Positions 5,441 to 45,690 of a DNA stretch of 64,000 bases are shown in pieces. How positions within the stretch are numbered: position 1 is the stretch's first letter; each line of letters opens with the position of its first letter. Position numbers and translations under genes: made by a program. The notes under the pieces were generated by a model. It was given only the letters and a program-made list of their open reading frames with translations, had not been told where the DNA came from and made no database searches. The DNA comes from Paenibacillus dendritiformis (GTDB taxonomy: Bacteria; Bacillota; Bacilli; Paenibacillales; Paenibacillaceae): positions 627,501 through 691,500 of the forward strand of contig NZ_OX216966.1 of the NCBI RefSeq assembly GCF_945605565.1. Direction: 5' to 3'.

Positions 5441-5520
5441 AGTGTTCAATAAGGCCAGTCAGTACCGAGAAGGTTTCAGGAACCTAAAGTGATCAAAAGC
5501 GGACTTTTTGAACAACCTCT
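5441..5520 (-). repeat. GTTCAAAAAG inverted-repeat element, copy 1
   Basis: Imperfect inverted repeat running from GTGTTCAATAAGG (5443) to GGACTTTTTGAAC (5501-5513), in reverse orientation to the copies at 22876 and 45606. The complement contains GTTCAAAAAGTCCGCTTTTG, which is shared with copy 3. It creates an apparent N-terminal extension (MIKSGLFE) on the downstream gene that should not be annotated as protein. Confidence 0.75.
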
Positions 5521-5536
5521 AGAAGGGGCAGACTTC

Positions 5537-7108
5537 ATGGTGTATCACGGAGAAGAATCCTTTTCACGTCATATTCATCAGCATGCGCCGTTGGTTGGCG
5601 CGATGCTTGACTATATGGAGCGCCGTTCGGCCTCCTTCCATGTTCCGGGTCATAAGGATGGCGAGCTGTACCGCCGGATGGCGGAAGAATGGCCGCACCC
5701 GGGCAACGAGCTGTTGCGCAGCATGGCCTCGCTCCTAGCCATGGACACGACCGAGGTCGAGGGAACGGACGATCTGCATCACCCGACCGGCCCGATCGCG
5801 GAAGCCCAGCGTCTGGCGGCACGCTGCTTCGGTGCCGAAGAGACACATTTTCTGATAGGCGGAAGCACGGTGGGCAATATGGCGCTTCTCTTGAGCAGCT
5901 GCACCCGTCCAGGCGATCTCATCATCGTGCAGCGGAATGTCCATAAATCGATTCTGCATGGCCTGATGCTGGCGGGCGCGAGGGCGGTATTCTTAACGCC
6001 GCAGACTGACCGGGCGACCGGACTGGCGGCTGTGCCGGATGTGGAGACGGTAAGCGAAGCGCTGAACCGCTATCCGCAGGCCAAGGCTGTCATGATTACG
6101 AACCCTAATTATTATGGAATGGGTGCCGATATAAGTGAGATGGCCCGCCTTGCCCATGATCACGGCATTCCTTTGCTCGTGGACGAGGCGCATGGGGCGC
6201 ATTTCGGATTTCATCCGGACGTCCCCCCCTCCTCCCTCTCGATGGGAGCGGATGGGGTCGTCCAATCAACGCATAAGATGCTGGGCGGGATGACGATGAG
6301 CGCCATGCTGCATGTGCAGGGGCCTCGTCTCGATCGGGACAGGCTGAAGCAGGTGTTAACGATGGTGCAGAGCTCCAGCCCTTCGTATCCATTGATGGCC
6401 TCGCTCGATTTGAGCCGCTACTGGCTGGACCGGCATGGAGCAGCCGCCTTGGAGCCCGGGCTGGAGGCCGCGCGCTGGCTGCGCGCACGAATCCAGGCGA
6501 TGCCGGCGTTCGAGCTGGTGCCGGGACCGGACGGCTTGACGGCTTATCATTATCAAGATCCATTCAAAATCGTCCTTCGGGATCGATGTGACCGGCTCAG
6601 CGGCTACGAGCTGCTGGACAAGCTGTCCGCCCATGGCTGTGTGGCCGAGATGGCCGATCCCCAGTTCGTGGTGGCGGCGCTCAGCTTGAGCACGTCGATG
6701 GCCGATGCGGAACGGCTGGCCCAAGCTCTCGAAGCGGTGGCGGTGACCATTGGCGATGCGCCTACATATAATACGATGCGGGCGAATGACATGGTTGAGA
6801 ATGCTGCCGGGGCCAGCTGCTCCGAGCCAGTGCCGTTCTCGCTGTACGATGTGCCTCAGGCGAGGACGGTGCGGGTACCGGCAAGCGCCGCGGTCGGTGC
6901 AATTGCGGCCGAGACCGTAACCCCCTATCCGCCAGGGATACCGCTGCTCTACCGCGGCGAACGCGTGACCGAGGCGGTTGTCCGGCAGCTTGAACGGCTG
7001 GCTGAAGCTGGGGCGAAATGTCACGGAGCCGGGGATCCGACGCTCCGGACCATACAAATAGTTGCGAACGAGATTAACGGCACGGAAGAGGAGACGCAGT
7101 ATGAATAG
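5537..7108 (+). CDS. Orn/Lys/Arg decarboxylase family PLP enzyme, YaaO-like
   Basis: PLP-dependent fold-type I amino acid decarboxylase of 523 residues, similar to B. subtilis YaaO and SpeA. The cofactor lysine is K247 in QSTHKMLGG. The upstream DEAHGAHFG (about 216-224) supplies the Asp that holds the pyridine ring, and FHVPGHKDG is the N-terminal family signature. The substrate (arginine, lysine or ornithine) cannot be read from sequence. Start ATG 5537 follows AAGGGG by 8 nt; the longer frame from GTG 5489 is encoded by the upstream repeat element. The stop overlaps the tmk start by 8 nt, suggesting translational coupling, as in the yaaO-tmk pair of B. subtilis. Confidence 0.88.
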
Positions 7109-7766
7109 AAGCAATTGGCCAGGCTGGTTCATTACGATGGAAGGAGGGGAAGGAGCCGGGAAGACGACGGCGATGCGCAAGCTGGCGCAGCGGCTGGAGG
7201 ATCGCGGGCTTGACATGGTCATGACGCGGGAACCGGGCGGCATCGCCATCTCCGAACAGATTCGCAGCCTGATTCTCGATCCTGCGCATGTCAGCATGGA
7301 CCCGCGAACGGAAGCGCTGCTCTATGCGGCGGCCCGCCGTCAGCATCTGGTGGAGCGGGTGGAGCCTGCGCTCCAACGGGGAGCCATCGTGCTGTGCGAC
7401 CGGTTCGTCGATAGCAGTCTTGCTTACCAAGGCTATGCACGGGGTATTGGTATGGAAGAGGTGTGGGATATCAACCGCTTCGCCGTGCATCGCACGATGC
7501 CGGATATTACGCTCTGGTTCGATATTGAGCCGGAAGAAGGACTGGAACGCATCCGAGCGAACCGCTCCCGCGAAGTGAACCGGCTGGACACGGAGCAGCT
7601 GGCATTTCATCAGGCGGTGCGGCAGGGCTATGAACGGCTCGCCCGGCAATTCCCCGACCGAATCGTCCGTGTGGACGCCTCGCAGTCGGAAACGGTGATT
7701 CAGGAGCAAATAATCGACATTTTATCCGAGCGAACGCAGGATTTCGGGCCCCGCATGTGTAAATAA
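7101..7766 (+). CDS. tmk: Thymidylate kinase
   Basis: Cytosolic dTMP kinase, 221 residues, which phosphorylates dTMP to dTDP with ATP. The P-loop [10 protein letters not shown] is at about 14-23, TREPGG follows near residue 44, and the [16 protein letters not shown] dTMP-binding stretch starts near D100. An Arg-rich lid ([10 protein letters not shown]) follows. ATG 7101 sits inside the end of yaaO; the frame upstream of it shows no family-like sequence. The downstream darA-yaaR-holB-ricT-yabA order is that of B. subtilis. Confidence 0.97.
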
Positions 7767-7770
7767 ATAA

Positions 7771-8156
<386 letters not shown>

Positions 8157-8157
<1 letters not shown>

Positions 8158-8192
8158 AGAGGCAGTTATAAAAAGTCCGCTTTGAACACTCA
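8157..8192 (+). repeat. GTTCAAAAAG inverted-repeat element, copy 2 (internally deleted)
   Basis: Short form AGAGGCAGTTATAAAAAGTC followed by CGCTTTGAACACTC. It keeps both ends of the larger element but has lost its middle. It starts at the darA stop and lies just before yaaR. Confidence 0.6.
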
Positions 8193-8226
8193 ATTTAGAG
8201 CATGATAGAATGCAGGTGGATAACAA

Positions 8227-8670
8227 GTGAAGATTAATCCAGGGTTCCGGCCCCTTGGCCAAGACGTGCGCATAGGGGATACGGTAGCGAAGCCCATTCA
8301 GCAGAAATCATTTGCGGATATAATGCAGCAGCAGGACGGCCAAGCGAGCAGAGATGAATTGCAGCAGCGCCTGCAGGATATTTATCGTCAAGGAGAACGA
8401 CTGGCGAAGTCGATGACCGTCAGGGAACTCCGGCAATACCGGACTCTGGTGAAGCGGTTCCTGGAAGATACGGTCCGCCGGGGCATCACGCTGCGCGACT
8501 CGCGCGGATGGGATCGCCGGGGACGCAATAAGCGCTACAAGCTGGTCGAGGAGATCGATGCGGCGTTGATTGCTCTGGCGGAGGAACTGCTGGAGACGGA
8601 ACAAGGCAAAATCGAATTGCTGCAAAAGGTCGGAGAGATTCGCGGCATGCTGATCAATTTGAGCTTTTGA
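8227..8670 (+). CDS. yaaR: YaaR family protein (DUF327)
   Basis: 147-residue, charged, mostly helical protein of the YaaR family, found next to holB in Bacillus-type genomes. It contains the pattern MTVRELRQYRTLVKRFLE and a long C-terminal helix (about 100-147). There is no signal peptide or membrane segment. Its biochemical role is not established. GTG 8227 follows AGGTGG by 6 nt. The stop overlaps a possible TTG start of holB. Family assignment is firm from sequence and position; function is unknown. Confidence 0.85.
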   Translation: MKINPGFRPLGQDVRIGDTVAKPIQQKSFADIMQQQDGQASRDELQQRLQDIYRQGERLAKSMTVRELRQYRTLVKRFLEDTVRRGITLRDSRGWDRRGRNKRYKLVEEIDAALIALAEELLETEQGKIELLQKVGEIRGMLINLSF

Positions 8671-8702
8671 CAGCCGTTCAGGAATGGAAGGACTTACAAG
8701 CG

Positions 8703-9683
8703 ATGTCGTTTCAACAAATTATCGGACAGGAACGGGCGAAGACCCTATTGCAGAACGGTCTGCGTTCGGGTAAAGTCTCGCATGCATATTTGTTCAGCGG
8801 GCCGAAGGGAACGGGGCGGCTGCAGACGGCAATCACCTTCACGAAGGCGCTGTTCTGCGAGAATGCAACGGATGACGCCTGCGGCGAATGCTTGTCATGC
8901 CGCAAGATCGAGCATGGCAATCACCCGGATGTGCATGTGATTTCACCCGAAGGACAGAGCATCAAAATCGATCAGGTGCGTGAACTGCAGCGGGAGTTTT
9001 CGTACCGGACGCATGCGGAAGGCCGCAAAGTGTATATTATGGAGCAGGCGGAGACGATGACCGTGCAGGCGGCCAACAGCCTGCTCAAATTTTTGGAAGA
9101 ACCGATGAGCCCGATCGTCGCGATCTTGATTACGGACAATGGACAAGCGATGCTGCCCACGATTCAATCGCGCTCGCAATGGGTGCCTTTTACCCCGGCG
9201 GATCCCCAGATCATCTACAATGCATTGGTTGAGGAGGGCTGCTCTGCCTTGCTGGCCCGGGCGGCGGTTCATCTCGTCAACGGAATAGGGGAAGGCAGGG
9301 AACTGTGCCAGCAGAATTGGTTTGCAGAACTGAGAAACGTAATGTTACAATTAGGAAAGGAGTGTGGGACACGGTTGTCATCCGCACTTCTTATGGCACA
9401 ACAGAAGGTGTTCAAGACCGAGCTTGGAGAACATACGGACATGTTGTTCCGTCTGTTCCACCTCTGGTTTCGTGATATGCTGAATTATCAATTCAACCGA
9501 CAGGAGAACCTCGTCTTTTGCGATCAGCTGGATGCAATAGGCAGAATAGCCTGGTCGAAATCGGCGCAGGGATGGATCCGATGCATGGCCGCGGCAGCAG
9601 AAGCGCAGAAGCGGGTACGCGCCAATGTCAGTCCGCAGCTTGCATTTGAACAGTTTCTGGTTGGAGTGCAAGGAGGTACATGA
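8703..9683 (+). CDS. holB: DNA polymerase III delta' subunit
   Basis: Clamp-loader delta' subunit, 326 residues, part of the complex that places the sliding clamp on primed DNA. The AAA+ Walker A loop GPKGTG is at 33-38 and a zinc module has Cys52, Cys60, Cys63 and Cys66 (C-x7-C-x2-C-x2-C). SLLKFLEEP and the IQSRSQ sensor region follow near 125-150. I start at ATG 8703 (MSFQQIIGQERA); TTG 8667 would overlap the yaaR stop but adds residues that do not look conserved. The ricT start codon directly follows the stop. Confidence 0.93.
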   Translation: MSFQQIIGQERAKTLLQNGLRSGKVSHAYLFSGPKGTGRLQTAITFTKALFCENATDDACGECLSCRKIEHGNHPDVHVISPEGQSIKIDQVRELQREFSYRTHAEGRKVYIMEQAETMTVQAANSLLKFLEEPMSPIVAILITDNGQAMLPTIQSRSQWVPFTPADPQIIYNALVEEGCSALLARAAVHLVNGIGEGRELCQQNWFAELRNVMLQLGKECGTRLSSALLMAQQKVFKTELGEHTDMLFRLFHLWFRDMLNYQFNRQENLVFCDQLDAIGRIAWSKSAQGWIRCMAAAAEAQKRVRANVSPQLAFEQFLVGVQGGT

Positions 9684-10484
9684 TTGTATAACGTGGTCGG
9701 CGTCCGCTTCAAGAGAGCGGGCAAAATATATTACTTCGATCCGGTGGAATGGCCGGTTCAGCGGGATGAGCACGTTATCGTCGAGACGGCGCGGGGAATC
9801 GAATACGGCAAAGTCGTCATCGGCCCGAAGACGGTCGGCGAGAATGATGTCGTACTTCCCTTGAAGAAGGTAATCCGCATTGCCAATGAGGCCGACGCTA
9901 CGCTGGTGGATTCGAACCGGCAGGCGGCGAAGGATGCCTTCACGACTTGCATGGACAAGATACGGGCTCATCAGTTGAAGATGAAGCTGGTTGATGTCGA
10001 ATATACATTTGATCGGAACAAAATTATTTTCTATTTCACGGCCGAAGGACGAGTAGATTTCCGAGAGCTGGTCAAAGACCTGGCAAGCGTATTCCGGACC
10101 CGGATCGAGCTGCGGCAGATTGGGGTACGGGATGAAGCGAAGATGCTCGGCGGCATCGGCCCGTGCGGCCGGGTCCTATGTTGTTCGTCCTGGCTCGGCG
10201 ATTTCGAGCCGGTCTCGATCAAGATGGCCAAAGATCAGAATTTATCGTTGAATCCTACCAAAATTTCCGGCCTGTGCGGCCGGCTCATGTGCTGCTTGAA
10301 ATACGAGCATGATAATTATGAGAGCGTCAAGGAAGAGCTTCCGGCGGTAGGGAAATGGGTAGTCACGTCGATCGGCGAGGGCAAGGTCGTCGGCCTGAAT
10401 GCCGGTGAACGGAAGGTTCACGTTCAATTGGCGGATATCAGCAAAGTGAAGGAGTTTCCTTTTGACGACGTCGTATTGAAATAA
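9684..10484 (+). CDS. ricT: RicT (YaaT), PSP1-domain subunit of the RicAFT complex
   Basis: 266-residue PSP1-domain protein. In B. subtilis RicT joins RicA and RicF in a complex carrying [4Fe-4S] clusters that steers RNase Y processing and is needed for normal sporulation, competence and biofilm formation. The cluster cysteines are present as GPCGRVLCC (C161, C166, C167) and GLCGRLMCC (C198, C203, C204), the same numbering as in B. subtilis. TTG 9684 is used because AAGGAGGT lies 6 nt upstream and it directly abuts the holB stop. It is probably co-transcribed with holB and yabA. Confidence 0.94.
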   Translation: MYNVVGVRFKRAGKIYYFDPVEWPVQRDEHVIVETARGIEYGKVVIGPKTVGENDVVLPLKKVIRIANEADATLVDSNRQAAKDAFTTCMDKIRAHQLKMKLVDVEYTFDRNKIIFYFTAEGRVDFRELVKDLASVFRTRIELRQIGVRDEAKMLGGIGPCGRVLCCSSWLGDFEPVSIKMAKDQNLSLNPTKISGLCGRLMCCLKYEHDNYESVKEELPAVGKWVVTSIGEGKVVGLNAGERKVHVQLADISKVKEFPFDDVVLK

Positions 10485-10517
10485 TGAAGCGTACTTTTCA
10501 CGCTCTGGGGTGGGAAC

Positions 10518-10907
10518 TTGGAGAAGAAAGACATTTTTGCGCAAATTCATGATATGGAAACGCATATGGGAGACCTTCATCAAGAGCTGGGTGCGCTGAA
10601 ATACGTCGTCAAGGAGCTGCTGGAAGAGAATCAACGCCTTCGCATGGAGAACCAGCGGCTGCGCCAATTGCTCCATCAGGAGCATCAGGATCAGCAGCCG
10701 GAATCCCCTGTCGCAGCAGAAGGAGCATCGGCACCCGCAGCGGATGCCCTGAACCCCGAAGGGGAAGAGCAGGAGAGTGTGGTAGGCGAAGGATACGACA
10801 ACTTAGCGCGGCTGTATCATGAAGGCTTTCATATTTGCAACGTCTATTATGGGCATTTACGAACGGAAGGCGACTGCTTGTTCTGTCTGTCCTTCCTAAA
10901 TAAATAA
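10518..10907 (+). CDS. yabA: Replication initiation control protein YabA
   Basis: 129-residue regulator that bridges DnaA and the DnaN clamp to limit re-initiation of replication (known from B. subtilis). An N-terminal heptad coiled coil (about 1-58) drives tetramer formation, an acidic Pro/Ala/Glu linker follows (59-92), and the C-terminal zinc domain carries [18 protein letters not shown] and [12 protein letters not shown] with H105, C107, C120 and C123. The start is TTG 10518, matching the homologue's MDKKELF-like beginning. It ends an apparent tmk-to-yabA gene run and is followed by a strong terminator. Confidence 0.94.
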
Positions 10908-10912
10908 CGAGG

Positions 10913-10955
10913 GCCGTAGGTGATGGGGAATCGGATTCCTGCCTACGGCTTTTCT
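10913..10955 (+). terminator. Terminator after yabA
   Basis: Perfect 8-bp stem GCCGTAGG (10913-10920) / CCTACGGC (10942-10949) followed by TTTTCTTC, 6 nt past the yabA stop. Confidence 0.85.
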
Positions 10956-11021
10956 TCATATCCAGGCTGCATCGGACAGGCTATATAATGACATGAGACA
11001 GGAAGGAGTTACCGATATAGA

Positions 11022-11813
11022 ATGAAGGAACACGGTAAGGAGAGCGGCATCCTGCAGCCTTCGGAACGGCTTGATGACCTGCTGACCCACGAGCTTCGCA
11101 TCATTCAGAGCCCGGAGGTGTTCAGCTTCTCGATGGATGCCGTTCTGCTGGCGCGCTTCGCCACGGTGCCTGCCAAGGGCCGCATTATGGATCTGTGCAC
11201 CGGCAACGGGGTCATTCCGCTGCTGCTGTCGACGCGGACAAGAGCCGCGATCGAAGGGCTGGAGATCCAGCCGCGCTTGGCGGACATGGCTCGCCGCAGC
11301 GTTGCCCTGAACGGGCTGGAGGAGCGCATCCGGATTCACGAAGGGGATCTGAAGCAGTTCGAACCGGATGCGGACCGGCCGTTCTATGAGCTGATTACGG
11401 TGAATCCGCCGTATATGCCGCTGCAGGCCGGAGAGCCGAAGCTGAGCGAGCATCAGGCGCTTGCCCGCCATGAGCTGGCATGCACGCTGGAGGATGTAAT
11501 TGCGCAGGCTGCTCGCTGGCTGCGAACGGGCGGCAAGCTGGCGATGGTGCATCGCGCCTCCCGGTTGGGCGATATCATCGCCTTGATGCGGGCATACCGG
11601 GTCGAGCCGAAGCGCATCCGCCTCGTGCATCCGCGCATCGGAATGGAAGCGAATATGGTGCTGATCGAAGCGGTGCGGGACGGCAAGCCGGACGTGCGTA
11701 TTCTCCCGCCGTTAATCGTTTATAATGAAGGAAATACGTATTGCCAGGAACTAATGGATATTTATTACGGCGAGTCGCCGCAGTTGAAGGATGGGTCACA
11801 TGGAGATCAATGA
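11022..11813 (+). CDS. tRNA1(Val) (adenine37-N6)-methyltransferase-type protein, YabB-like
   Basis: SAM-dependent methyltransferase of 263 residues. It has the class I SAM motif DLCTGNGVIPLLL (about 57-69) and the N6-adenine catalytic motif NPPY at 128-131. This matches the TrmN6/YabB family, which methylates A37 of tRNA1(Val) in E. coli; the tRNA target in this organism is inferred. ATG 11022 follows AGGAAGGAG. The stop overlaps the start of rsmI by 14 nt. In B. subtilis a small GIY-YIG gene (yazA) lies between these two genes; it is absent here. Confidence 0.87.
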   Translation: MKEHGKESGILQPSERLDDLLTHELRIIQSPEVFSFSMDAVLLARFATVPAKGRIMDLCTGNGVIPLLLSTRTRAAIEGLEIQPRLADMARRSVALNGLEERIRIHEGDLKQFEPDADRPFYELITVNPPYMPLQAGEPKLSEHQALARHELACTLEDVIAQAARWLRTGGKLAMVHRASRLGDIIALMRAYRVEPKRIRLVHPRIGMEANMVLIEAVRDGKPDVRILPPLIVYNEGNTYCQELMDIYYGESPQLKDGSHGDQ

Positions 11814-12708: not shown

Positions 12709-12830
12709 TGATTCCGGCTCATTCCTATGGGCCGGCCGGAGGGTCCGGAAGTAGGGGCCATAAGGCATAGTTCCCTGTGGCTGCCTGTTCACAAAGGCCT
12801 GGTGAGTACCCTCTACAAGGCAAAAAAAGA

Positions 12831-12860: not shown

Positions 12861-12926
12861 CACCAAGGAAGATATGAAAAAGGTTAGAATTAACAAGTTG
12901 ATTAGTGCTATTATAACCTATTTTTT

Positions 12927-13181: not shown

Positions 13182-13219
13182 ATTCAACGCTCTCCTCTTA
13201 ATTACATAATGTGTCATGA

Positions 13220-15914: not shown

Positions 15915-16210
15915 CAACCAGTATCGCTTAATCTCCTTGAGTGGAGAGCGGGGGAACCAAATGGCGTGTTGGCGGTGCATCTATGGCATGGCTGAACGCG
16001 TGGATTGATTCCTTGGGGTGAATTCGGTGCAGCCGAGCCATGAGCCGGTTCGCAGCGACAGGGCGACTCTCACAGCCCGAACCCGACAGCTAACCTCGTC
16101 AGCGTACGGAGAGAGGGGTCCTCGTGCGTCCTTAACTGATGACGTTTGGGTTTCAATGAGAAGCCATGATCAAGAGTCGCCTCTTACACTAGGCTTCTTT
16201 TGTTTTTCTC
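15915..16210 (+). ncRNA. Cyclic di-AMP riboswitch (ydaO/yuaA class) with terminator
   Basis: The gap between tatD and yabE carries the conserved ydaO-class words CGCTTAATCTCC, GAGAGCGGGGGAACCAAATGG, TTGGGGTGAATT, GAGCCGGTTCGCAGCGACAG, CGACTCTCACAGCCCGAACC and CGACAGCTAACCTCGTCAGC in order. A terminator follows: AGAAGCC (16159-16165) / GGCTTCT (16192-16198), with an inner AAGAG / CTCTT stem and a T-rich tail. Known members turn genes off when c-di-AMP binds, often in front of cell-wall remodelling genes, which fits yabE. Exact 5' bound is approximate. Between the terminator and yabE is a further hairpin at 16298-16321. Confidence 0.92.
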
Positions 16211-21947: not shown

Positions 21948-22017
21948 TTGACATATTGATAAATTGTTGATAATGGACGTACATTCATGTAATATTTACA
22001 TTATAATATTCGGTTTT
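21948..22017 (+). promoter_or_regulatory. purR promoter region and PurBox-like site
   Basis: TTGACA (21948-21953), a 17-nt spacer and TAATGG (21971-21976) give a plausible sigma-A promoter. The 13-mer AATATTCGGTTTT at 22005-22017 matches the complement of the PurBox consensus (AWWWCCGAACWWT) at 12 of 13 positions. Autoregulation of purR through PurBoxes is known in B. subtilis; only one half-site pair is seen here. Confidence 0.45.
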
Positions 22018-22035
22018 TGTGAGCGAGGAGTCACG

Positions 22036-22869
22036 ATGAAAAAAATGAAGCGCAGCGCCCGCTTGGTTGAAATGACGCAATACCTGATGACGAAGCCCCA
22101 TACGCTCATTCCACTCACGACCTTCGCTGAACGGTATGGTGCGGCCAAATCGTCCATCAGCGAAGATCTGGCGATTATCAAGGAAGTGTTCGAAGAGGAA
22201 GGAACGGGGGAACTGCTTACCCTTGCCGGAGCGGCCGGGGGCGTGAAATTCATGCCCAAATGCGGTCCGGACAAGGCTCTTCCTGTCATCGAGGAATTAT
22301 GCACCGTCATGGAGCAGCCTGACCGCGTGCTGCCCGGCGGTTACTTCTACATTACGGATATACTTGGCCAACCGGCGCTCATGAATGATATCGGGCGCAT
22401 GTTCGCTTCCGCGTTCGCAGGGCGCGAGATCGACGTCGTCATGACTGTAGAGACGAAGGGAATCCCGATCGCCTACGCGACGGCCGCGCATCTCAACCTG
22501 CCGGTGGTGCTGGTGCGCCGGGACCATGTCGTCACGGAAGGATCGGCCGTCAGCATTAATTATGTATCCGGCTCGCATAAGAGCATTCATACGATGACAT
22601 TGGCCCGGCGGGCGTTGAAGGAGCGTTCGCGCGTCTTGATCGTGGACGATTTCATGCGCGCGGGCGGAACGGTTCACGGCATGATCGAGCTGCTGCATGA
22701 GTTCAATGCGATGGTGGCCGGTGTCGGCGTCCTGGTCGAATCTGAAGACGTTTCGAAGGAAGAACGGCTGCTTCACGATTACGTGTCGCTGGTCCGGGTT
22801 GGAACGAAGGACCCAGGCGGTCGTCAGTTGGTTGTTCAGCCGGGCAATTATTTCGATGGAATGAAGTAA
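22036..22869 (+). CDS. purR: Purine operon repressor PurR
   Basis: 277-residue PRPP-sensing repressor of purine genes. An N-terminal winged helix (RRSARLVEMTQYLM-like start, SERYG-AKSSISEDLAII region, about 5-70) is fused to a type I PRTase domain. Its PRPP loop is VLIVDDFMRAGGTVHGM (about 198-214), and TVETKGIPIAYATAAHLNLPVVLVRRD precedes it. In the Bacillus enzyme this fold binds PRPP but does not catalyse. ATG 22036 is 5 nt after GCGAGGAG (ATG 22045 is possible); the longer frame from 21964 runs through the promoter. Followed by copy 3 of the inverted-repeat element. Confidence 0.95.
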   Translation: MKKMKRSARLVEMTQYLMTKPHTLIPLTTFAERYGAAKSSISEDLAIIKEVFEEEGTGELLTLAGAAGGVKFMPKCGPDKALPVIEELCTVMEQPDRVLPGGYFYITDILGQPALMNDIGRMFASAFAGREIDVVMTVETKGIPIAYATAAHLNLPVVLVRRDHVVTEGSAVSINYVSGSHKSIHTMTLARRALKERSRVLIVDDFMRAGGTVHGMIELLHEFNAMVAGVGVLVESEDVSKEERLLHDYVSLVRVGTKDPGGRQLVVQPGNYFDGMK

Positions 22870-22875: not shown

Positions 22876-22932
22876 AGAGGCAGTTCAAAAAGTCCGCTTT
22901 TGATCACGAAGAGAAACAGCCTTTTTGAACAT
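22876..22932 (+). repeat. GTTCAAAAAG inverted-repeat element, copy 3
   Basis: Perfect 10-bp terminal inverted repeat GTTCAAAAAG (22883-22892) / CTTTTTGAAC (22921-22930) around a 28-nt centre. It follows the purR stop and precedes ridA. It can fold as a hairpin and may double as a terminator-like structure, though the T-run is inside the stem. Confidence 0.8.
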
Positions 22933-22965
22933 GCATGACAACATGCATTAAAAGGAGGAAACGCC

Positions 22966-23349
22966 ATGTCTGAAAAAATAGTTCCTGTAGCGACGAAAGA
23001 GGCTCCTGCAGCAATAGGTCCCTATTCGCAAGCGGTGCAATGGGGCAATCTCGTATTTACCTCTGGTCAAATACCGCTGACTGCGGAAGGCCAGCTAGTG
23101 GAGGGCGGCATCGAGGAACAGACGCATCAAGTATTCCGCAATTTGAAGGCCGTGCTGGAGGAGGCAGGAACCTCTTTGGACAAGGTGCTCAAGGCGACCG
23201 TGTTCCTCAAGGATATGAATCAATTCACTCAAATCAACGCCATCTATGAAGCTTATTTCGGATCGCATAAGCCGGCTCGCTCCACCGTTGAAGTGGCGCG
23301 GCTGCCAAAAGATGTGCTTGTCGAAATCGAACTAATCGCTACGATTTAG
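22966..23349 (+). CDS. ridA: RidA family 2-iminobutanoate/2-iminopropanoate deaminase (YabJ)
   Basis: 127-residue trimeric enzyme that hydrolyses reactive enamine/imine products of PLP enzymes. [43 protein letters not shown] and the C-terminal [23 protein letters not shown] signature (with the key Arg) are all present. ATG 22966 has AAAGGAGG 8-9 nt upstream. The purR-yabJ-spoVG order is as in B. subtilis, where yabJ was first linked to purine regulation. Confidence 0.95.
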
Positions 23350-37278: not shown

Positions 37279-37418
37279 GTGCCTGCCGGGAGGAGATCTC
37301 CGGTTGCAGCAGGGGCTTCGAACGCGGCGGTGCAGGGAAAATAAGCCTTTGAATCTCTTCCCCCCGTTCCCTATAATAGACGTATAACCAAATACATTCC
37401 GCCGGCATTCCCGGCGGG

Positions 37419-37505
37419 AGAGGTTCGCAATCTCCCTCTATAAAAAACTAAGGCTGACAGCATCCGTACGGGTATGGCTTTCCCTTGGTGTTGTCTTTTT
37501 TTGTG
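37419..37505 (+). ncRNA. preQ1-I riboswitch controlling queCDEF
   Basis: The 35-nt aptamer at 37419-37453 begins AGAGGTTCGC, has the CCCTCTATAAAAAACTAAGG core with the A-rich tail, and can fold as the H-type pseudoknot of preQ1-I. Downstream, GACAGCA (37456-37462) can pair with TGTTGTC (37488-37494), followed by seven T, as a terminator. Known members lower expression when preQ1 is bound. The genes that follow make preQ1. Placement of the terminator base pairs is by eye. Confidence 0.93.
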
Positions 37506-38353: not shown

Positions 38354-38838
38354 GCAGACCGGGCCCGTTCCGCATCGTAGAGAAGCTGCAGCAATACGGA
38401 ACCGATATATCCCGCGAGTCGCTGCGCTACCACAAGCGCCGCGTGCTCGTCAGCAAGGAATTCACCTTCGACGCGGCGCATCATCTGCACGCCTACGAAG
38501 GCAAATGCAAAAATCTGCACGGCCATACGTACAAGGCTGTGTTCGGCCTAAGCGGCTATACGAACGACATTGGCATCGCCCTTGATTTCGGAGACATTAA
38601 GGAGATCTGGAAGGAGCGGATCGAACCGTATCTCGATCACCGTTATTTGAACGAGACGCTCCCCCCGATGAATACGACGGCGGAGAATATGGTCGTCTGG
38701 CTATATGAGCAGATGAGCGCCGCGCTGGCGGAGGAGCCGTACCGCACCCGCTGCGAAGGCGGGCGAGTGGAGTTCATCCGTCTCTACGAGACGCCGACCA
38801 GCTATGCCGAGGCGAGACGGGAGTGGATGGAGCGATGA
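38350..38838 (+). CDS. queD: 6-carboxy-5,6,7,8-tetrahydropterin synthase QueD
   Basis: 162-residue T-fold enzyme that converts dihydroneopterin triphosphate to carboxytetrahydropterin. Zinc and catalytic residues appear in [23 protein letters not shown] (H44, Cys53, H57, H59). An N-terminal extension of about 34 residues (to VSKEF) precedes the normal domain; its purpose is unknown. ATG 38350 overlaps the queC stop and its TGA overlaps the queE ATG. Confidence 0.94.
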
Positions 38839-39560: not shown

Positions 39561-39569
39561 CAGAAGGCC

Positions 39570-39621
39570 GGCCTGTCATCAGGCCGCTTGTATGGGAAGC
39601 CGCCCCGGTGCGGAACCGGGG
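39570..39621 (+). other. Two hairpins between queE and queF
   Basis: GGCCTG (39570-39575) / CAGGCC (39580-39585) with loop TCAT, and CCCCGG (39603-39608) / CCGGGG (39616-39621) followed by AAGCTTTTG. The second resembles a weak terminator, so queF may be expressed below the level of queCDE. Confidence 0.5.
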
Positions 39622-39671
39622 AAGCTTTTGAATTCGACACGAATAACCGATATAGAAGGGGAGGCAATCAC

Positions 39672-40163
39672 ATGGCAGGCAGGAACGAAGCCGAATTGCA
39701 GCTGAAGCATCTCGGAGGGAAGACGGAATACGCGACCGACTACGCGCCTCATGTATTGGAGGCGTTCGACAATAAGCATCCGAACCGCGATTATTTCGTC
39801 AAATTCAACTGTCCGGAGTTCACCAGCCTCTGTCCGATGACGGGGCAGCCGGACTTCGCGACCATGTATATCAGCTATATTCCGGACCGGAAGTGCGTCG
39901 AGAGCAAGTCGCTGAAGCTCTATATGTTCAGCTTCCGCAATCATGGCGATTTCCACGAGGATTGCGTCAATATCATTATGAATGATCTGATCGGGCTGCT
40001 CGATCCGAAATATATCGAAGTATGGGGCAAGTTCACGCCGCGCGGCGGCATTTCTATCGATCCGTATTGCAATTACGGCCGTCCGGGCACGAAATACGAG
40101 GAGATGGCGGCTTATCGCCTGATGAATCATGATTTATACCCGGAGACGGTCGACAACCGGTAA
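39672..40163 (+). CDS. queF: NADPH-dependent preQ0 reductase QueF
   Basis: 163-residue T-fold nitrile reductase that converts preQ0 to preQ1. The nucleophile is Cys54 in [15 protein letters not shown] (Asp61 the acid), and the family motif [21 protein letters not shown] is present. ATG 39672 follows AAGGGGAGG. The longer upstream frame would cross the two hairpins at 39570-39621. The product preQ1 is the ligand of the riboswitch at 37419. Confidence 0.95.
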
Positions 40164-40248
40164 GAGAGAATTGTTGGAAGCGTGGCCGCGTTGAAGTTCT
40201 ATTCTGGCATTCCCTTCATAAGCTAGTGTTGAGAAGGAGGTACATGCC

Positions 40249-40536
40249 ATGATGGAATTGAACAAGCCAACGGCCAAGCGCCAGGAGATTAAGATGGTCA
40301 ACCGCAAGCTGCTGGAGATTAGCGGGGTAAGCAAAGTAGAGAGCTTCGACAGCGAGGAGTTCCTGCTGGATACCGAATGCGGATTTCTGACCATACGCGG
40401 CCACAATCTTCATATCAAAAACTTGAGCCTCGAACAAGGACAAGTCGCCATTGAAGGCACGGTCAACTCCCTGACCTATCTGGATGCGAGCTCGCACGAT
40501 AAATCCAAAGGCTTTTTCGGGAAGTTATTCAAGTGA
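40249..40536 (+). CDS. yabP: Sporulation protein YabP
   Basis: 95-residue YabP family protein needed for normal spore formation in B. subtilis. The core VNRKLLEISGVSKVESFDSEEFLLDTECGFLTIRGHNLHIKNLSLE is the YabP/YqfC domain (also related to SafA-region coat proteins). ATG 40249 follows AAGGAGGT. The stop overlaps the GTG start of yabQ, as in the sigma-E yabPQ operon of B. subtilis; no convincing sigma-E promoter was placed. Confidence 0.92.
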   Translation: MMELNKPTAKRQEIKMVNRKLLEISGVSKVESFDSEEFLLDTECGFLTIRGHNLHIKNLSLEQGQVAIEGTVNSLTYLDASSHDKSKGFFGKLFK

Positions 40537-41177
40537 GTCTGTACGTACAATGGACGACCGTGCTGCTCATGATGCTGAGCGGCTTGGCGCTCGGTGTCGT
40601 ATTTGACGGCTACCGCGTCGTAGCGGGGCAATTCCGTTTCCCTCGGTGGACGGTTCCGCTGCTGGATTTGATGTATTGGCTGGCTGCGACGCTGTTCGTG
40701 TTTCAGATGCTCGTGAAGGGCAATCAGGGAGAGCTTCGATTTTACGTCTTTCTTGGCTTGGCCGCCGGGGCGTGGTTGTATGTTATCCTTCTCAGCAAGG
40801 TCACGGTCGCGATCGTAACGTGGCTCGTGCGGGCCATATTGGCCATCTCCCGGTTCATCCGCCGATGCCTGTATGTTCTGCTCGTGCTGCCGCTCAAGGG
40901 CTTATGGATCTTTACAAAAGGTCTAGGTGCGTTTTTGCTGACGGCGGCTATGTTCATCGGAAAAATTGTGCTACAATGTGTTAAGCCGCTATGGTTGCTG
41001 GTCCGCTGGATTTTCCGGCCGCTCATTCTTCCGATCTGGGAACGGCTGGGCATAACGGAACGGCTCCACCGGATCAAGCAGAAGGTATTTTCTGGTGTGC
41101 GTCGAATGAATCAATGGGTGGCAGCGGGAAGAGCGAAGGCGGCTCGTCTGCTGCGCCTGTTTCATCATAAGAAGTAA
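40533..41177 (+). CDS. yabQ: Spore cortex membrane protein YabQ
   Basis: 214-residue polytopic membrane protein. The N-terminal YabQ domain (VQWTTVLLMMLSGLALGVVFDGYRVV) and further hydrophobic segments near 40-60, 70-90 and 95-150 fit the family, which is required for cortex synthesis. The C-terminal third (about 160-214) is strongly basic. GTG 40533 overlaps yabP. divIC follows in the usual order. Confidence 0.92.
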   Translation: MSLYVQWTTVLLMMLSGLALGVVFDGYRVVAGQFRFPRWTVPLLDLMYWLAATLFVFQMLVKGNQGELRFYVFLGLAAGAWLYVILLSKVTVAIVTWLVRAILAISRFIRRCLYVLLVLPLKGLWIFTKGLGAFLLTAAMFIGKIVLQCVKPLWLLVRWIFRPLILPIWERLGITERLHRIKQKVFSGVRRMNQWVAAGRAKAARLLRLFHHKK

Positions 41178-41222
41178 CGGGTAATTCCTTTATCTGACTC
41201 TATCGAAACTGGGGGTGTGCGT

Positions 41223-41543
41223 ATGTCTGCGTCCCGGACACCGGACCGTACTCGTGAGAACAAAATGGCAGGAGCCAAGCGAAGATTGCGATTGTGGATG
41301 GGGTTTATGGTGGTGTTTGCGGGGTGGGGCTTATATACGTACATCGACCAGGCTGCTACCATTGAGGGGCTCAAAGCCGATTATCAGGTGCAGGAGAAGA
41401 AGAAGACGGCTGCCGAAAAGACGCGGAACGAGGTTCAGCAGGAAGTCGATCGCCTGAATACGACCGAATATATTCTTCAGATTGCGAGAAGTAAAGGGAT
41501 GCTGCTTCCGGACGAAGTCCTTATCCGCAAGCACGAGGAATAG
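41223..41543 (+). CDS. divIC: Cell-division protein DivIC (FtsB-like)
   Basis: 106-residue bitopic protein: a basic N-terminus, one membrane helix (about 29-46), and a coiled coil (about 48-85), then the EYILQIARSKGMLLPDEV motif typical of DivIC/FtsB. It links FtsL and DivIB in the divisome. ATG 41223 follows GGGGGTG by 6 nt. It follows yabP-yabQ as in B. subtilis. Confidence 0.9.
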   Translation: MSASRTPDRTRENKMAGAKRRLRLWMGFMVVFAGWGLYTYIDQAATIEGLKADYQVQEKKKTAAEKTRNEVQQEVDRLNTTEYILQIARSKGMLLPDEVLIRKHEE

Positions 41544-41567
41544 GCGCCATATCGGGACAACCGTCGG

Positions 41568-41596
41568 TTGACCACTTGGTGCGGTTACAGTATAAT
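41568..41596 (+). promoter_or_regulatory. Sigma-A promoter of the S1-domain gene
   Basis: TTGACC (41568-41573), a 17-nt spacer and TATAAT (41591-41596), about 75 nt before the start of the S1-domain gene. Confidence 0.75.
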
Positions 41597-41669
41597 CACG
41601 ACATAAGCATTGCTTTCGGTAACGAAGCGGTGTGCCGTTTAACATTTTAAGGGAGGAACATTTTATTCT

Positions 41670-42134
41670 ATGACAATCGAAGTGGGCACCAAGTTACAAG
41701 GCAAGGTGACAGGCATTACGCATTTTGGAGCGTTCGTTGATCTGTCGGGAGGTGTCACGGGACTGGTTCACATCTCTGAAATTGCCGATAACTATGTCAA
41801 GGACGTGAATGACCATTTGAAGATTGACGATATCGTCACGGTCAAAGTAATTAACGTCGACAAGGACGGCAAGATTGGCTTGTCTATCAAGCAGACAGTG
41901 GATAAGCCAGCATCGGAGCAGAGACCGCCAAGAGGACCTCGTCAAGACCGTCCGAACCGAGACGGGGGAGGAAGAGGCGGCTTTGGTAACCGCGACCGGG
42001 GTGGCCGCAAGCCTAATTTCGCTTCTTTTGAGGATAAAATGTCGCGCTTCCTTAAAGATAGTGAAGAGCGCATCTCGTCTTTGAAAAAGAACACGGAATC
42101 CAAGCGCGGAGGCCGTGGCGCACGCCGCATGTAA
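41670..42134 (+). CDS. yabR: S1 RNA-binding domain protein YabR
   Basis: 154-residue RNA-binding protein. The S1 fold spans about 1-75 (GKVTGITHFGAFVDLSGGVTGLVHISEIADNYVKDVNDHL and GLSIKQ). A Arg/Gly/Pro-rich linker (about 80-112) and a basic C-terminus follow. The family resembles the polynucleotide phosphorylase S1 domain; its exact role is not established. ATG 41670 follows AGGGAGG. Own promoter and terminator. In B. subtilis tRNA genes follow it; none is seen here. Confidence 0.9.
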   Translation: MTIEVGTKLQGKVTGITHFGAFVDLSGGVTGLVHISEIADNYVKDVNDHLKIDDIVTVKVINVDKDGKIGLSIKQTVDKPASEQRPPRGPRQDRPNRDGGGRGGFGNRDRGGRKPNFASFEDKMSRFLKDSEERISSLKKNTESKRGGRGARRM

Positions 42135-42151
42135 TAGATGACGAAGGAACG

Positions 42152-42189
42152 AAGCCGCAGACCGGGCACCCGGTATTGCGGCTTTTTTG
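42152..42189 (+). terminator. Terminator after yabR
   Basis: AAGCCGCA (42152-42159) pairs with TTGCGGCTT (42176-42184) around an inner CCGGG / CCCGG stem, then a T-run. Confidence 0.88.
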
Positions 42190-42235
42190 CTGTGTATGTG
42201 GCCTTGGCCGGTGCTGGTGCCGGGAGGTTCTGATC

Positions 42236-42430
42236 GGGCTCGGGCCAAGCCTGCAAATCTGCAGCATTTTCTCTCGATTCATGCCCTGTGAGCTAGAATT
42301 GCTGCAAATATACATCTTTTTGCCCCTCTTTAGGGGCTTTAAGCTCGGAATGGAAGAAATTGATGCATTATTGCAGGAATCCACTTTTCAACAACTGCCT
42401 GCAATCGAATTCCTGCATCTCTGCAGCAAT
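42236..42430. repeat. GAATTGCTGCA / TGCAGGAATT family repeats upstream of spoIIE
   Basis: Words CTGCAAATCTGCAGCA, AGAATTGCTGCAA, TGCAGGAATCC, GAATTCCTGCA and CTGCAGCAAT occur in both orientations. They are the same vocabulary as the arrays at 2432-2500 and 3931-4136. A separate stem CCCCTCTTTAGGGG lies near 42325-42338. The 42190-43021 gap holds these, the 42-bp tandem repeat and the spoIIE promoter; no gene is credible. Confidence 0.6.
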
Positions 42431-42510
42431 CAGGAGAGGATGAACAGGAAACGGCTTCTTTCCAGGCCGGTGTCGGCCCACTCAATGGCCTCTGCCCACC
42501 AAGCTCTGCA

Positions 42511-42622
42511 CCAGCTTCCACGCCGGTTTCTGGCCTCCTACTTGTGCCTCCGCCAGCTTCCACGCCGGTTTCTGGCCTCCTACTTGTGCCTCCGCCAGCT
42601 TCCACGCCGGTTTTCTGGCGCC
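42511..42622. repeat. 42-bp tandem repeat
   Basis: Two identical 42-bp units at 42511-42552 and 42553-42594, each beginning CCAGCTTCCACGCCGGTTTC, plus a third partial, slightly diverged unit to about 42622. Because 42 is a multiple of 3, the frames through it look repetitive (minus strand GGTSRRPETGVEA), but neither frame has a convincing start or family match. Confidence 0.85.
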
Positions 42623-42918
42623 TCCGCCGCCTTCCCAACGGCTTCCGCCCTGCCGTCCCCGCCCCCAGCAGTCTCCACATTGTGACGGAATGGCAGATTC
42701 ATCGCATTGATTTTACTGCCGCCACTATTTTTGTCACCCGTACGAAGGGTTACGACATGTTCTTACGCTATTCCGTATCCTTTCCCCTTATTTCTGAACG
42801 GCGGCAAGTGCAGAACTGCAAAAAAATGACATTCACCTGCTTGCCCTCATGCCGGCTAACACCGGGCGAGCCCTTGTGCGCGCAGGCTTGTCCGTTTTCT
42901 CGCGCCCGACTCAACTGG

Positions 42919-42984
42919 TGTCGGAAACTTTTTTGGACGGGCCTCCTTTTTCTGACAAACTATTTCCAGCTCCTTCTCTATAAT
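42919..42984 (+). promoter_or_regulatory. spoIIE promoter, Spo0A-dependent type
   Basis: CTGACA (42952-42957) and TATAAT (42979-42984) are separated by 21 nt, the long spacing of the Spo0A-activated sigma-A promoters of spoIIE and spoIIG in B. subtilis. TGTCGGAA at 42919-42926 and the complement TTTGTCAGAA at 42950-42959 are Spo0A-box-like. The start would lie about 30 nt before the spoIIE start codon. Confidence 0.7.
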
Positions 42985-43021
42985 GAGAGGCACACATTTC
43001 AGAGAATAGGTGGTGCTTGGC

Positions 43022-45526
43022 ATGAGTAAGACAAAGGTGATTCCGTTTCCGAAGAAAGGCTGGCAGAGCGGGGGGCAAGGAGAGGGCGAGTGGAGCCTCC
43101 CACATAACAAATGGCGGCTGGAACGATTCAAGCGGGTACTTGGCACGCGGAAATGGACCTTCATGTTTGTGCTTATCGGTTTTTTGCTGGGACGGGCCAT
43201 GATCTTGAATGAGTTGTTTCCGTTCGCCGCCGCGTTTTTTGCGGTCGTCTATTTTACGCGCCGCGAGCTGGCAACCTGGGTAGGGACGGCGCTGCTGGCC
43301 GGAAGCTTGTTCGCGCCGGAGCAGATCTCGCTCATGATGGGCATGCAGCTGCTGCTTATCGTACTGATGCACCGCGGCTTGAAAGCGTATGAACGGACCG
43401 ATATGAACATGGCGCCGATCATCGTGTTCGCCGCTACGCTGCTCGTCAAGCTGTTCGTGACCTTTATGTCGACGGCCCTGACCTGGTACGCCCTCGTGAT
43501 GGATATGACGGATGCTGTGCTCGGTCTCGTCCTGACCCTCGTGTTTATACAAGCATTGCCCGTTCTGACGATGAGTAAACGCAATTATACGCTGCGGGTG
43601 GAGGAAATGATCTGCCTGATGATTCTTCTGGCCTCCATTATGACCGGCGCTGTCGGCTGGACCGTCGAGTCGCTGCAGCTCGATCATATTATTTCTCGCT
43701 ATTTCGTGCTGCTGTTCGCCCTGGTCGGCGGAGCACCGCTTGGCGCCTCGGTCGGCGTCGTGCTCGGCTTGATACTCGGCTTGGCCGAGCCGAATTCGCT
43801 GACGCAGATGAGCGTGCTGGCGTTTGCCGGCTTGCTGGCCGGTCTGCTGAAGGACGGCAAGCGCTGGGCGGTTGCCTTCGGCATGCTGCTCGGGACGGCG
43901 ATTCTATCCGTCTATCTCGGGCCTCCTTCGGAGGTGATGGCTTCGACCTGGGAGACGATTGCCGCGGCAGCGCTATTCTTGCTCACTCCTAAATCGATAT
44001 GCGCCACCTTGGCCAAATATGTGCCGGGAACGAACGAGCATACGAAATCGCAGCATGAATATGCGAAGCGGATGCGCGACATGACGGCGGAACGGGTTAC
44101 CCAGTTCTCGGAGGTGTTCCGGCAGCTGTCGAGCAGCTTCAAGCAGACTGCCCAGACGGGCGAGCCTCCGACGGTGGGAGAGGAGCGCAATCGGATGATC
44201 GAATCCGTGACGGCCGCTACCTGTCTCGGCTGCCCGCGGCAGCAGGCCTGCTGGAACCATAAGTCGCTCCAGACGATGACGATGATGAATCAGATGATGA
44301 GCAAGGTCGAACAGGATACCGAGATCGTCTCCTACAAGGAGAAGCAGCTGCCTCAGACGTGGAGGAGCCACTGCATGAAGGCGCCGAAGGTGCTCGCTCT
44401 GATGAGGGAGCATATGATCCGGCGGGCGCTGGACGAGCATTGGCAGAAGCAGATTTTGGACAGCCGCCACTTCGTTGCCGATCAACTGGCCGGCGTGTCG
44501 CAGGTGATGGATGATCTGGCCCGGGAGATTCGGCGCGAAGGACGGGAGCTGTTCATGCAGGAGGAGCAGATTCGGCAGGCGATGGAGGATCTCGGGCTGT
44601 CCGTGCACCGCGTTGATATTTTATCGCTCGATGCGGGACGGATCGAGATCGAGATGATTCATTCCTTCACCGACGGCTATGACGAATGCCGCAAGCTCAT
44701 TGCGCCGCTGCTGTCGGATATATTGGGCGAGCATATCGCCGTCAGAGAGGAGAGGTTAACCGGAACCGAAGGGCATGGCATGGTCACCTTCGTCTCGGCG
44801 AAGGCATTCGAGGTGGAGACCGGCATGGCCGGGGCTGCCAAAGGAGGGGATATGCTGTCGGGAGACAGCTTCAGCACGCTGGAGCTCGGCAGCGGGAAGT
44901 ATGCGGTCGCCTTGAGCGACGGGATGGGCAATGGCGAGCGGGCCCGCATGGAGAGCAGCACCGCGTTGAAGCTGCTGTCCCAGTTCCTGCAATCGGGTAT
45001 TGACGAGAAGCTGGCGATCCAATCCGTCAATTCGGTGCTGACGCTGCGGTCGCCGGACGAGATCTACGCGACGGTCGATATGGCGATCATTGATCTGTAT
45101 TCCGCGAAGACGACGTTCATGAAGAGCGGCTCCACGCCCAGCTTCATCAAGAGCGGGAAGGACGTCCGCTTAGTATCGGGCAGCAACTTGCCGATAGGTA
45201 TTATACAGGATATTGATTTCGAGCTGATTGATTCGGCTTTGCAGCCGGGAGATATCTTGATTATGATGACGGACGGCATCTTCGATGCTCCCGGGCCGGC
45301 AGTCAATAAGGAGATGTGGATGAAGCGGCTCATCAGCGAGCTGGAGACCGACGATCCGCAGGAGATTGCCGATCTTCTCCTGGAGACCGTCATCCGTCAT
45401 GCCAGCGGTCATATCGATGACGACATGACCGTCGTCGTGACGCGCGTTGCCCGCCATCAGCCGCAATGGGCCACGCTGCACTGGAATGGGCATGACCGTA
45501 TGGAGCGGCCGCTGACGGTCAGCTAA
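43022..45526 (+). CDS. spoIIE: Stage II sporulation protein E, SpoIIE phosphatase
   Basis: 834-residue membrane PP2C phosphatase that dephosphorylates SpoIIAA and so activates sigma-F in the forespore; it also acts with FtsZ at the polar septum. About ten transmembrane segments (about 40-310) are followed by a regulatory region (about 320-590, with the CPRQQACW cysteine pair) and the phosphatase domain (about 595-830). MGNGERARMESSTAL, GDSFSTLELGSGKYAVALSDGMGNG and MMTDGIFDAPG contain the metal-binding Asp residues. ATG 43022 has AGGTGG 8 nt upstream. Promoter is of the Spo0A type. Confidence 0.97.
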   Translation: MSKTKVIPFPKKGWQSGGQGEGEWSLPHNKWRLERFKRVLGTRKWTFMFVLIGFLLGRAMILNELFPFAAAFFAVVYFTRRELATWVGTALLAGSLFAPEQISLMMGMQLLLIVLMHRGLKAYERTDMNMAPIIVFAATLLVKLFVTFMSTALTWYALVMDMTDAVLGLVLTLVFIQALPVLTMSKRNYTLRVEEMICLMILLASIMTGAVGWTVESLQLDHIISRYFVLLFALVGGAPLGASVGVVLGLILGLAEPNSLTQMSVLAFAGLLAGLLKDGKRWAVAFGMLLGTAILSVYLGPPSEVMASTWETIAAAALFLLTPKSICATLAKYVPGTNEHTKSQHEYAKRMRDMTAERVTQFSEVFRQLSSSFKQTAQTGEPPTVGEERNRMIESVTAATCLGCPRQQACWNHKSLQTMTMMNQMMSKVEQDTEIVSYKEKQLPQTWRSHCMKAPKVLALMREHMIRRALDEHWQKQILDSRHFVADQLAGVSQVMDDLAREIRREGRELFMQEEQIRQAMEDLGLSVHRVDILSLDAGRIEIEMIHSFTDGYDECRKLIAPLLSDILGEHIAVREERLTGTEGHGMVTFVSAKAFEVETGMAGAAKGGDMLSGDSFSTLELGSGKYAVALSDGMGNGERARMESSTALKLLSQFLQSGIDEKLAIQSVNSVLTLRSPDEIYATVDMAIIDLYSAKTTFMKSGSTPSFIKSGKDVRLVSGSNLPIGIIQDIDFELIDSALQPGDILIMMTDGIFDAPGPAVNKEMWMKRLISELETDDPQEIADLLLETVIRHASGHIDDDMTVVVTRVARHQPQWATLHWNGHDRMERPLTVS

Positions 45527-45605
45527 TCTCTCGGCCGCGGCTTCCTGACTTGCCGCCCCCGTATGGCCAGCGGGGTGTAAACTCTCTTTTCCTTGGAAAT
45601 ACTAG

Positions 45606-45690
45606 GAGAGGTAGTTCAAAAATTCCGCTTCGCTTCGAGTTCTTGCAATCTTCTCGGTGCTGAAAACCGGTCTTTTTGAACTCGCACTCG
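45606..45690 (+). repeat. GTTCAAAAAG inverted-repeat element, copy 4
   Basis: GTTCAAAAA (45614-45622) and TTTTTGAAC (45673-45681) bound a 50-nt centre that shares TTCTCGGT-CTGA with the complement of copy 1. It lies between spoIIE and yabS and creates the false N-terminus MLKTGLFE on the downstream frame. Confidence 0.72.

Follow-up and report, generated by a model that had tools for sequence, protein, structure and literature searches.

Within a 64,000-nucleotide stretch of the Paenibacillus dendritiformis genome (the window hereafter; C1:627501-691500 of a 6.72-Mb single contig) we examined four copies of a short inverted-repeat element, which are internally deleted, worn derivatives of a longer parent element. 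The parent very probably belongs to a family of gene-less miniature inverted-repeat transposable elements (MITEs) that share a conserved hairpin, are moved in trans and decay after insertion. A sequence-only reading of the window had already described its copies as a MITE-like or structured intergenic family. The first label is supported by inverted terminal repeats, 5-bp target duplications and orthologous sites without the element, which, with a short length and no transposase gene, are the defining MITE features tested and found; the second is supported by covariation along the whole element length, and the third by the rarity of copies inside open reading frames (ORFs). Beyond that first view, the parent element is modular and, by kinship label, extends to another order.

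All four window copies lie within a few bases of the positions first proposed (Table 1). Copy 3 does have the perfect 10-bp ends ascribed to it, copy 2 has retained only its ends, and the block said to be common to copies 1 and 4 (TTCTCGGT) is real and forms part of the right arm. A 21-mer, GTTCAAAAAGTCCGCTTTTGA, has three matches in the window at up to three mismatches (copies 1, 3 and 4) versus none in 100 shuffles, while copy 2 was missed when the window was scanned with the family covariance model. The repeat TTTAGA stands on both sides of copy 2 (8153-8158 and 8194-8199), and copy 1 is flanked by the imperfect duplications AAGGA (5433-5437) and TAGAA (5520-5524), with AAGAA in the empty site of relative G010.

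The intact element is short (∼178 bp) and contains no gene. Based on 30 loci read, its core of ∼165-168 bp runs from GTTC to GAAC between two outer 6-bp stretches, a left-hand GAGGTW and a right-hand ACGCAC. Over their terminal 25 bases the two ends of the core are alike (GTTCAAAAAGTCCGCTTTTGATCAC and GTTCAAAAAGNCCGGTTTTCAGCAC); the terminal inverted repeats are imperfect, extending over ∼30 bp with mismatches, and the 10-bp ends occur in both orientations. End-pattern searches returned 145 finds, with certain elements counted once per strand, and these correspond to 127 distinct elements. Most finds (94 of 145) measure 170-176 bp, with further classes at ∼213, 250, 286 and 320 bp; core lengths of ∼167, 204, 242, 278 and 311-316 nt show a stepwise lengthening.

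Evidence of mobility was obtained from the flanks. Immediately beyond the 6-bp ends lies a direct repeat of 5 bp, exact in 52 of the 127 elements versus 5.9 expected from re-pairing flanks among elements, the offset being the best of 36 pairs tried at length 5. With the offset fixed beforehand, exact duplications were found in 12 of 20 elements from the draft genome of Paenibacillus sp. EZ-K15 (1.05 expected), and at least four of five bases agreed in 17 (4.8 expected); these 20 were selected from 29 close pairs of ends and comprise eight long copies, eleven of ∼167 nt and one of 34 nt. Column counts in both flanks give the palindrome C-TWWWA-G as the target, and the duplications are mostly TWWWA. 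Comparisons with relatives, all of them between species, add sites without the element: the insertion at locus L018 is filled in the window's genome (G000) and in G001, is empty in G006, G008 and G014, where two adjoining matches lack the element, and is likewise empty in G010 with extra bases.

The sites of the window copies vary in a similar fashion among these relatives. An element or piece of one occupies the copy 1 site in G006, G008 and G001 and is absent in G010; a relic of 39-40 bp stands at the place of copy 2 in all four; and the flanks of copy 3 are separated by 6-7 bp in G006, G008 and G001 and by 38 bp in G010. At copy 4 the flank spacing is 96 bp in the window, 95-96 bp in G008 and G001, 187 bp in G006 and 180 bp in G010, with no clear element in G013 (112 bp) or G018 (70 bp). 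Because this spacing differs among relatives, copy 4 appears to have shrunk, or the G006 and G010 copies to have grown, after insertion.

The sequence-only reading had staked its case on more than a few further copies, and these exist at about 40-60 places in the genome. An 87-base query (E up to 1) gave 55 pieces and a 176-base full-length query (E up to 0.1) gave 51, each placing the element at no fewer than 40 positions; the best 40 candidates were scored per search, so some copies may be missed. Merging both queries gives at least 51 places, and the total reaches 60 once end-pattern matches and three short copies are joined, the weakest of which are possibly chance. A 25-nt end pattern with up to three mismatches matched 60 times, compared with zero for the reversed pattern.

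Outside the window's genome, matches at E 1e-3 were found in 29 of 79 genomes (its own counted), including 11 of 18 relatives in the same genus. The covariance model, applied across the class at E 1e-5, identified 34 of 299 genomes, again counting the window's own: 20 from the window's family, in which seven further listed members gave no match; six from a different family and genus (f32/g60), with best E values between 1.0e-36 and 2.7e-35; and a remaining eight whose matches were weaker (best E 7e-12 to 9e-6). The placement of f32 in another order is read from its kinship label (same class, not same order). Horizontal spread is plausible because L313, an f32 copy, shares 85.8% identity with L069, a copy in the window's family. 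To our knowledge most MITEs have a narrow host range; unlike MITEs in general, this element spans a family and, by that label, another order. An exact 25-mer occurs in at least 119 stretches of public genomes, all titled Paenibacillus or Cohnella among the matches listed. No match was found in 50,697 phage records. Three of 72,556 plasmid records matched, all from Paenibacillus, and in two of them the element is flanked by co-directional genes.

The fold was assessed on an alignment of 47 cores, from 82 of 150-172 nt after removal of those more than 92% identical, in the right-end-first direction. RNAalifold predicted one long stem of seven helices in which 19 of 44 pairs show compensated changes on both sides. 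Pairing holds in 96.6% of 2064 cells versus 86.9% in shuffled alignments, two-sided changes occupy 191 cells versus 64, the covariation score is 0.289 versus 0.119, and none of 500 shuffles reached any of five pairing or covariation measures; relatedness may inflate this shuffle control, and the alignment tested is also the one from which the structure was predicted. When one partner of each pair was slid by one to three columns, pairing fell to 31-46%. The consensus pair types comprise 25 GC, 16 CG and one each of AU, UA and UG (the last at columns 43-101). Because the slid controls drop and the pair types are varied, the predicted fold is very likely real. The copy at L018 has a folding z of -3.2.

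With respect to strand, the right-end-first strand is predicted to be more stable in all 47 cores (mean -58.6 versus -48.0 kcal/mol; consensus energy -33.7 versus -16.6), which weakly suggests that selection may act on the fold in RNA or in right-end-first single-stranded DNA. We let this suggestion depend on the folding energies and mark it as weak because counts of G-T versus A-C cells vary with the structure chosen. They were 165 versus 9 on the structure of the strand itself and reversed to 13 versus 111 on that of the other strand, and this test was dropped; a choice of pairs intended to be strand-neutral gave 120 versus 33, 19 of the 33 coming from one doubtful pair, and a Watson-Crick-only choice gave 30 versus 14.

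Longer copies carry ∼37-nt hairpin modules (type ATGTTTCCGNAGGAAACAT-NCTTCGNAAGCATNNGCTT), for which there are three fixed positions, two of them opposite one another on the stem. In loci totalling about 1.5 Mb, 52 of the 53 sequences resembling a module are close to an end of the element. A shared insertion in the window's genome (L014) and in P. dendritiformis G25-126 (L178) has nearly identical flanks, and the two copies are nearly identical except for the modules: the L178 copy has two, one per arm, with the tip nearly unchanged. By eye the outer parts of these two modules are complementary, and the pair could therefore lengthen the stem. A different module, a double hairpin of 117 nt, occurs whole or in part near one end of seven of the 20 EZ-K15 copies, at a fixed place in the element (L324-L328, and partly L323 and L330, both of which contain masked N stretches). 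Because five of the seven (L324-L327 and L330) have exact duplications, the composite elements have evidently moved or the module has been exchanged in place. A hairpin somewhat like this module was also seen elsewhere in EZ-K15 (L118).

At the opposite extreme, ends-only copies are recurrent in G013, where pattern search gave 165 end matches. Their junctions are as expected if the stretch from CTTTTGATCAC (left arm) to CTTTTTGAACAC (right end) had been deleted, and window copy 2 contains such a junction (GTCCGCTTTGAACAC). Ends-only palindromes with a core of ∼34 bp or less were repeatedly seen (L294, L295, L296, L342), the one at L342 with an exact 5-bp duplication. Separately, head-to-tail tandems with one common spacer of 4-5 bp were noted at L012 (1353-1709), L116, L117 and L214, and by spacing at C15:231434-231831 of G013; the units are 96-99% identical in L012, L117 and L214.

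From these observations a mechanism can be proposed. The two ends, GAGGTWGTTCAAAAAGTCCGCTTTTGATCAC and a right end that matches it in part (GTGCGTGTTCAAAAAGNCCGGTTTTCAGCAC), are the probable recognition sites of a transposase provided in trans. This enzyme would insert the element at CTWWWAG-like intergenic sites and duplicate the middle 5 bp. The interior would form one long hairpin, its pairing kept by compensatory changes between lineages, with ∼37-nt modules seated at the three fixed places. After insertion, copies would decay by internal deletion, often from CTTTTGATCAC to CTTTTTGAACAC to judge from the junctions, and end up as short palindromes, as in window copies 2 and 3. What we infer here is that a transposase exists, that it is of the DDE type and that it is supplied in trans.

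A partner was sought among more widely spaced ends. The window's genome holds 53 exact TGTTCAAAAAG and 60 looser ends, and the single pair near the size of an insertion sequence (IS), 799 bp at L027, was rejected as an autonomous partner: it contains another repeat and, by eye, no transposase-like ORF. Twenty more stretches there, mostly with unpaired ends, and four others yielded single matches or short copies with deletions, and only two showed another end within 3 kb, L284 (one mismatch, 2.3 kb away, inside a coding frame) and L291 (a short copy). Two related genes in L284 (1-1032) and L285 are presumably Rpn nuclease/putative transposase-like; the 11-mer TGTTCAAAAAG lies inside both coding frames, probably by chance. 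G013 has no pair at IS distance among 73 exact ends, and a pair ∼2.2 kb apart was, among the ends listed, a short complete copy plus a separate end. In EZ-K15, where mismatched ends were not sought, the 87 exact ends include 29 close convergent pairs at 34-437 bp, the 437-bp copy being partly masked, and a 30th at 30 kb; one span of 2,140 bp has two elements. Long end pairs were also found at L118, L127, L119 and L172, of which the two examined, L118 and L127, contain ORFs that look ordinary by eye, and at L158 two full elements flank an ordinary-looking gene.

Several observations weigh against a mobile, structured MITE family. No transposase with matching ends was found in the window's genome, in G013 (among the ends listed) or in the EZ-K15 draft, and no transposase-family search was made. 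A MITE usually has such an autonomous partner but does not need one, and here it may have been lost or be located elsewhere. No exact duplication is present in 75 of the 127 copies, for which age and decay are our explanation rather than a result, and none is visible at window copy 3. The L018 insertion lacks a clean duplication, and ∼45 extra bp to its right are missing from the empty sites. In the same genus, 7 of 18 genomes had no match at E 1e-3. Family members do not count as independent cases in the strand argument, and when the comparison is confined to the 18 pairs predicted for both strands, G-T and A-C cells occur in nearly equal numbers (9 versus 7). The sequence-only reading had proposed folding each window copy for a conserved structure; copies 3 and 4 do fold better than shuffles (z of -2.4 and -3.2, and of -3.9 and -2.9, on the two strands), and copy 1 folds little better (z of -0.2 and -1.1), so that a host benefit is not visible for copy 1.

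Genomic context bears on whether the element serves its host. Among 99 copies with at least 700 bp on each side, 12 lie inside an ORF of 90 or more amino acids, compared with 80% of random placements, a crude estimate given that ORFs were called mechanically. The 87 intergenic copies comprise 49 between co-directional genes, 23 at divergent and 15 at convergent sites; in 32 of the 49 the transcribed strand is also the one that folds better, a weak bias. The element might thus be a host-useful RNA acting in cis, as a terminator, messenger stabiliser or processing site, with mobility secondary; the covarying fold, the share of co-directional sites with the stem on the transcript, and A5/T5 tracts beside the stem in the style of a bidirectional terminator are all in keeping with this. 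We consider it unlikely, given how weak the orientation bias is, the copies at divergent and convergent sites, the orthologous copies that change length and shrink, and the missing outward promoter: a candidate starting from the end hexamer TTGAAC was rejected, since -10-like hexamers are not enriched at 16-18 nt across the family. In window copy 2 (8182-8211), TTGAAC is followed 18 nt on by TAGAAT, by eye a possible promoter for the DUF327 gene. A more ambitious form of the MITE explanation, in which a mobile structured RNA is selected across orders alongside the DNA ends, its modules come and go as exchangeable parts at fixed sockets, and the RNA or single strand aids transposition or protects host transcripts, is conceivable and we hold it as doubtful.

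Other routes of spread were also considered. The hairpin with its strand preference, the high copy number and the intergenic placement recall REP/RAYT or IS200/IS605-type elements moved as single-stranded DNA by a hairpin-recognising HUH transposase. IS200/IS605 elements, however, are not known to make target duplications or to have terminal inverted repeats, and the present element has both; the duplications largely refute this route, which is thus highly improbable. Spread resembling site-specific recombination at an AT-rich motif, with the TWWWA repeats as recombination sites, would account for the head-to-tail tandems with their single common spacer, and such spread has been suggested in print for the B. 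cereus bcr repeats, which PMC6542083 ties to a TTTAT motif. The duplicated 5-mer, however, differs among sites (TAGAA, TAGTA, TTAAA, TATTG, ATAAA) and agrees within each, a pattern that fits target duplication rather than a single fixed site, and we judge this mode improbable. Chance or an assembly artefact carries a negligible probability and is refuted by the 60 end matches versus none reversed and by the recurrence of the exact 25-mer in public genomes.

One consequence of a mobile element family concerns gene starts. The sequence-only reading had suspected that the element adds false N-terminal residues to two genes, and both extensions are indeed open frames, at the beginning of ORFs 5489-7108 and 45657-46493. 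Based on sequence comparison, the decarboxylase-like gene likely starts at the ATG at 5537-5539, and the VWA-domain gene at that at 45729-45731. G010, which has no element at copy 1, shows a stop in place of the element frame and retains the downstream ATG; the frame is preserved in G008, where the element is present, gives way to another upstream frame in G001, and was not found in G006 by peptide search. For the VWA-domain gene, MKQILLITDG is constant in seven genomes; upstream of it the element frame is common to G006 and G010, other frames occur in G008 and G001, and the two genomes that lack the element, G013 and G018, have short unrelated extensions only and keep the downstream ATG. Because relatives without the element lack the frame yet keep the downstream ATG, both extensions come from the element and are very likely false starts.

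To place the element among known systems, comparisons were made by description. The accessible portion of PMC3049150 presents the pneumococcal BOX (boxA-boxBn-boxC) as a short intergenic non-coding repeat with conserved ends, variable hairpin modules, an RNA fold and proposed mobilisation in trans. A variable number of internal hairpin modules is a likeness of architecture, whereas the taxon, the three module places (two on opposite arms) and the clear 5-bp duplications set our element apart from BOX as that portion describes it. The bcr1-bcr3 repeats are described, in the parts of PMC6542083 and PMC3446304 at hand, as MITE-like and intergenic, a 100-400 bp set often in untranslated regions, with an AT-rich 5-bp motif and tens of bcr1 copies per genome; the former, as available, gives the first bcr element as restricted to the B. 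cereus group. Our element resembles bcr1 as outlined there in its MITE-like form, AT-rich 5-bp motif and many copies, and differs in that its plasmid matches are only in Paenibacillus. MITEs such as QMITE2 and RUP, according to what could be seen of PMC10969869, have terminal inverted repeats, target duplications, a stem-loop transcript and intergenic placement. Rfam gave no match over the window copies at gathering score, nothing up to E=1 over the element in L031, L032, L061, L070 and L158, and in L324-L328 only snoZ278 over L326 (20.3 bits versus a gathering score of 36, E=0.57), which is not credible.

A literature search aimed at repeats of Paenibacillus and its relatives, BOX and bcr1 found no report of the element, subscription papers being mostly outside its scope; solely on this limited search the family is apparently undescribed, BOX/bcr1-like in style, and would be a new family of a known kind. 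Apparently unnamed so far, the family reaches tens of copies per genome across many Paenibacillaceae and, by kinship label, occurs in another order as well; it gives genes in-frame false starts and adds structured intergenic sequence. It offers a natural data set in which a mobile hairpin keeps its fold while swapping modules, and is noteworthy for a fold conserved across orders, for modules that sit as if in sockets and for the failure to find a partner transposase.

Table 1. Element copies, element-borne start codons and adjoining genes in the window.
Feature	Position	Strand	Remarks
Copy 1	5438..5519 (core 5444-5513)	+ (right-end-first strand)	Internally deleted; family covariance model 31.7 bits, E 1.4e-5
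Copy 2	8159..8193	-	Ends-only relic; genome-search match 635657-635690, 89%
Copy 3	22877..22936 (core 22883-22930)	-	Strongly deleted; model 38.4 bits, E 4e-7
Copy 4	45608..45687 (core 45614-45681)	-	Internally deleted; model 34.3 bits, E 3.5e-6
Element-borne GTG	5489..5491	+	Likely false start, Orn/Lys/Arg decarboxylase-like (YaaO-like) gene
Element-borne GTG	45657..45659	+	Likely false start, VWA-domain gene; ORF begins MLKTGLFE
DarA/YaaQ-type c-di-AMP receptor	7819..8157	+	Stop codon inside left TTTAGA repeat of copy 2
DUF327 gene (presumably YaaR, the name used in the sequence-only reading)	8227..8670	+	Downstream of copy 2
purR	21964-22869		Upstream of copy 3
RidA family gene	22966..23349	+	Downstream of copy 3

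Other repeats were noted along the way. Another dispersed repeat, characterised by the motif GAATTGCTG-TTTTTACAGGATTTC, occurs in the window at 2432-2458, 3950-4193 and 42357-42385, partly in tandem with a spacing of 48-50 bp, and similar wording was seen in L027 around 1050-1240. In L027 (746-1544; G000:C1:2891841-2892639), the ∼700 bp between element ends include a different repeat (GGGGTGGAGATTGTCCATTTTCCTACTCAAAACTT...) twice, which looks like insertion of other repeats into the element. Lastly, the window contains ordinary c-di-AMP (ydaO/yuaA) and PreQ1 riboswitches, at 15915-16120 and 37414-37457.

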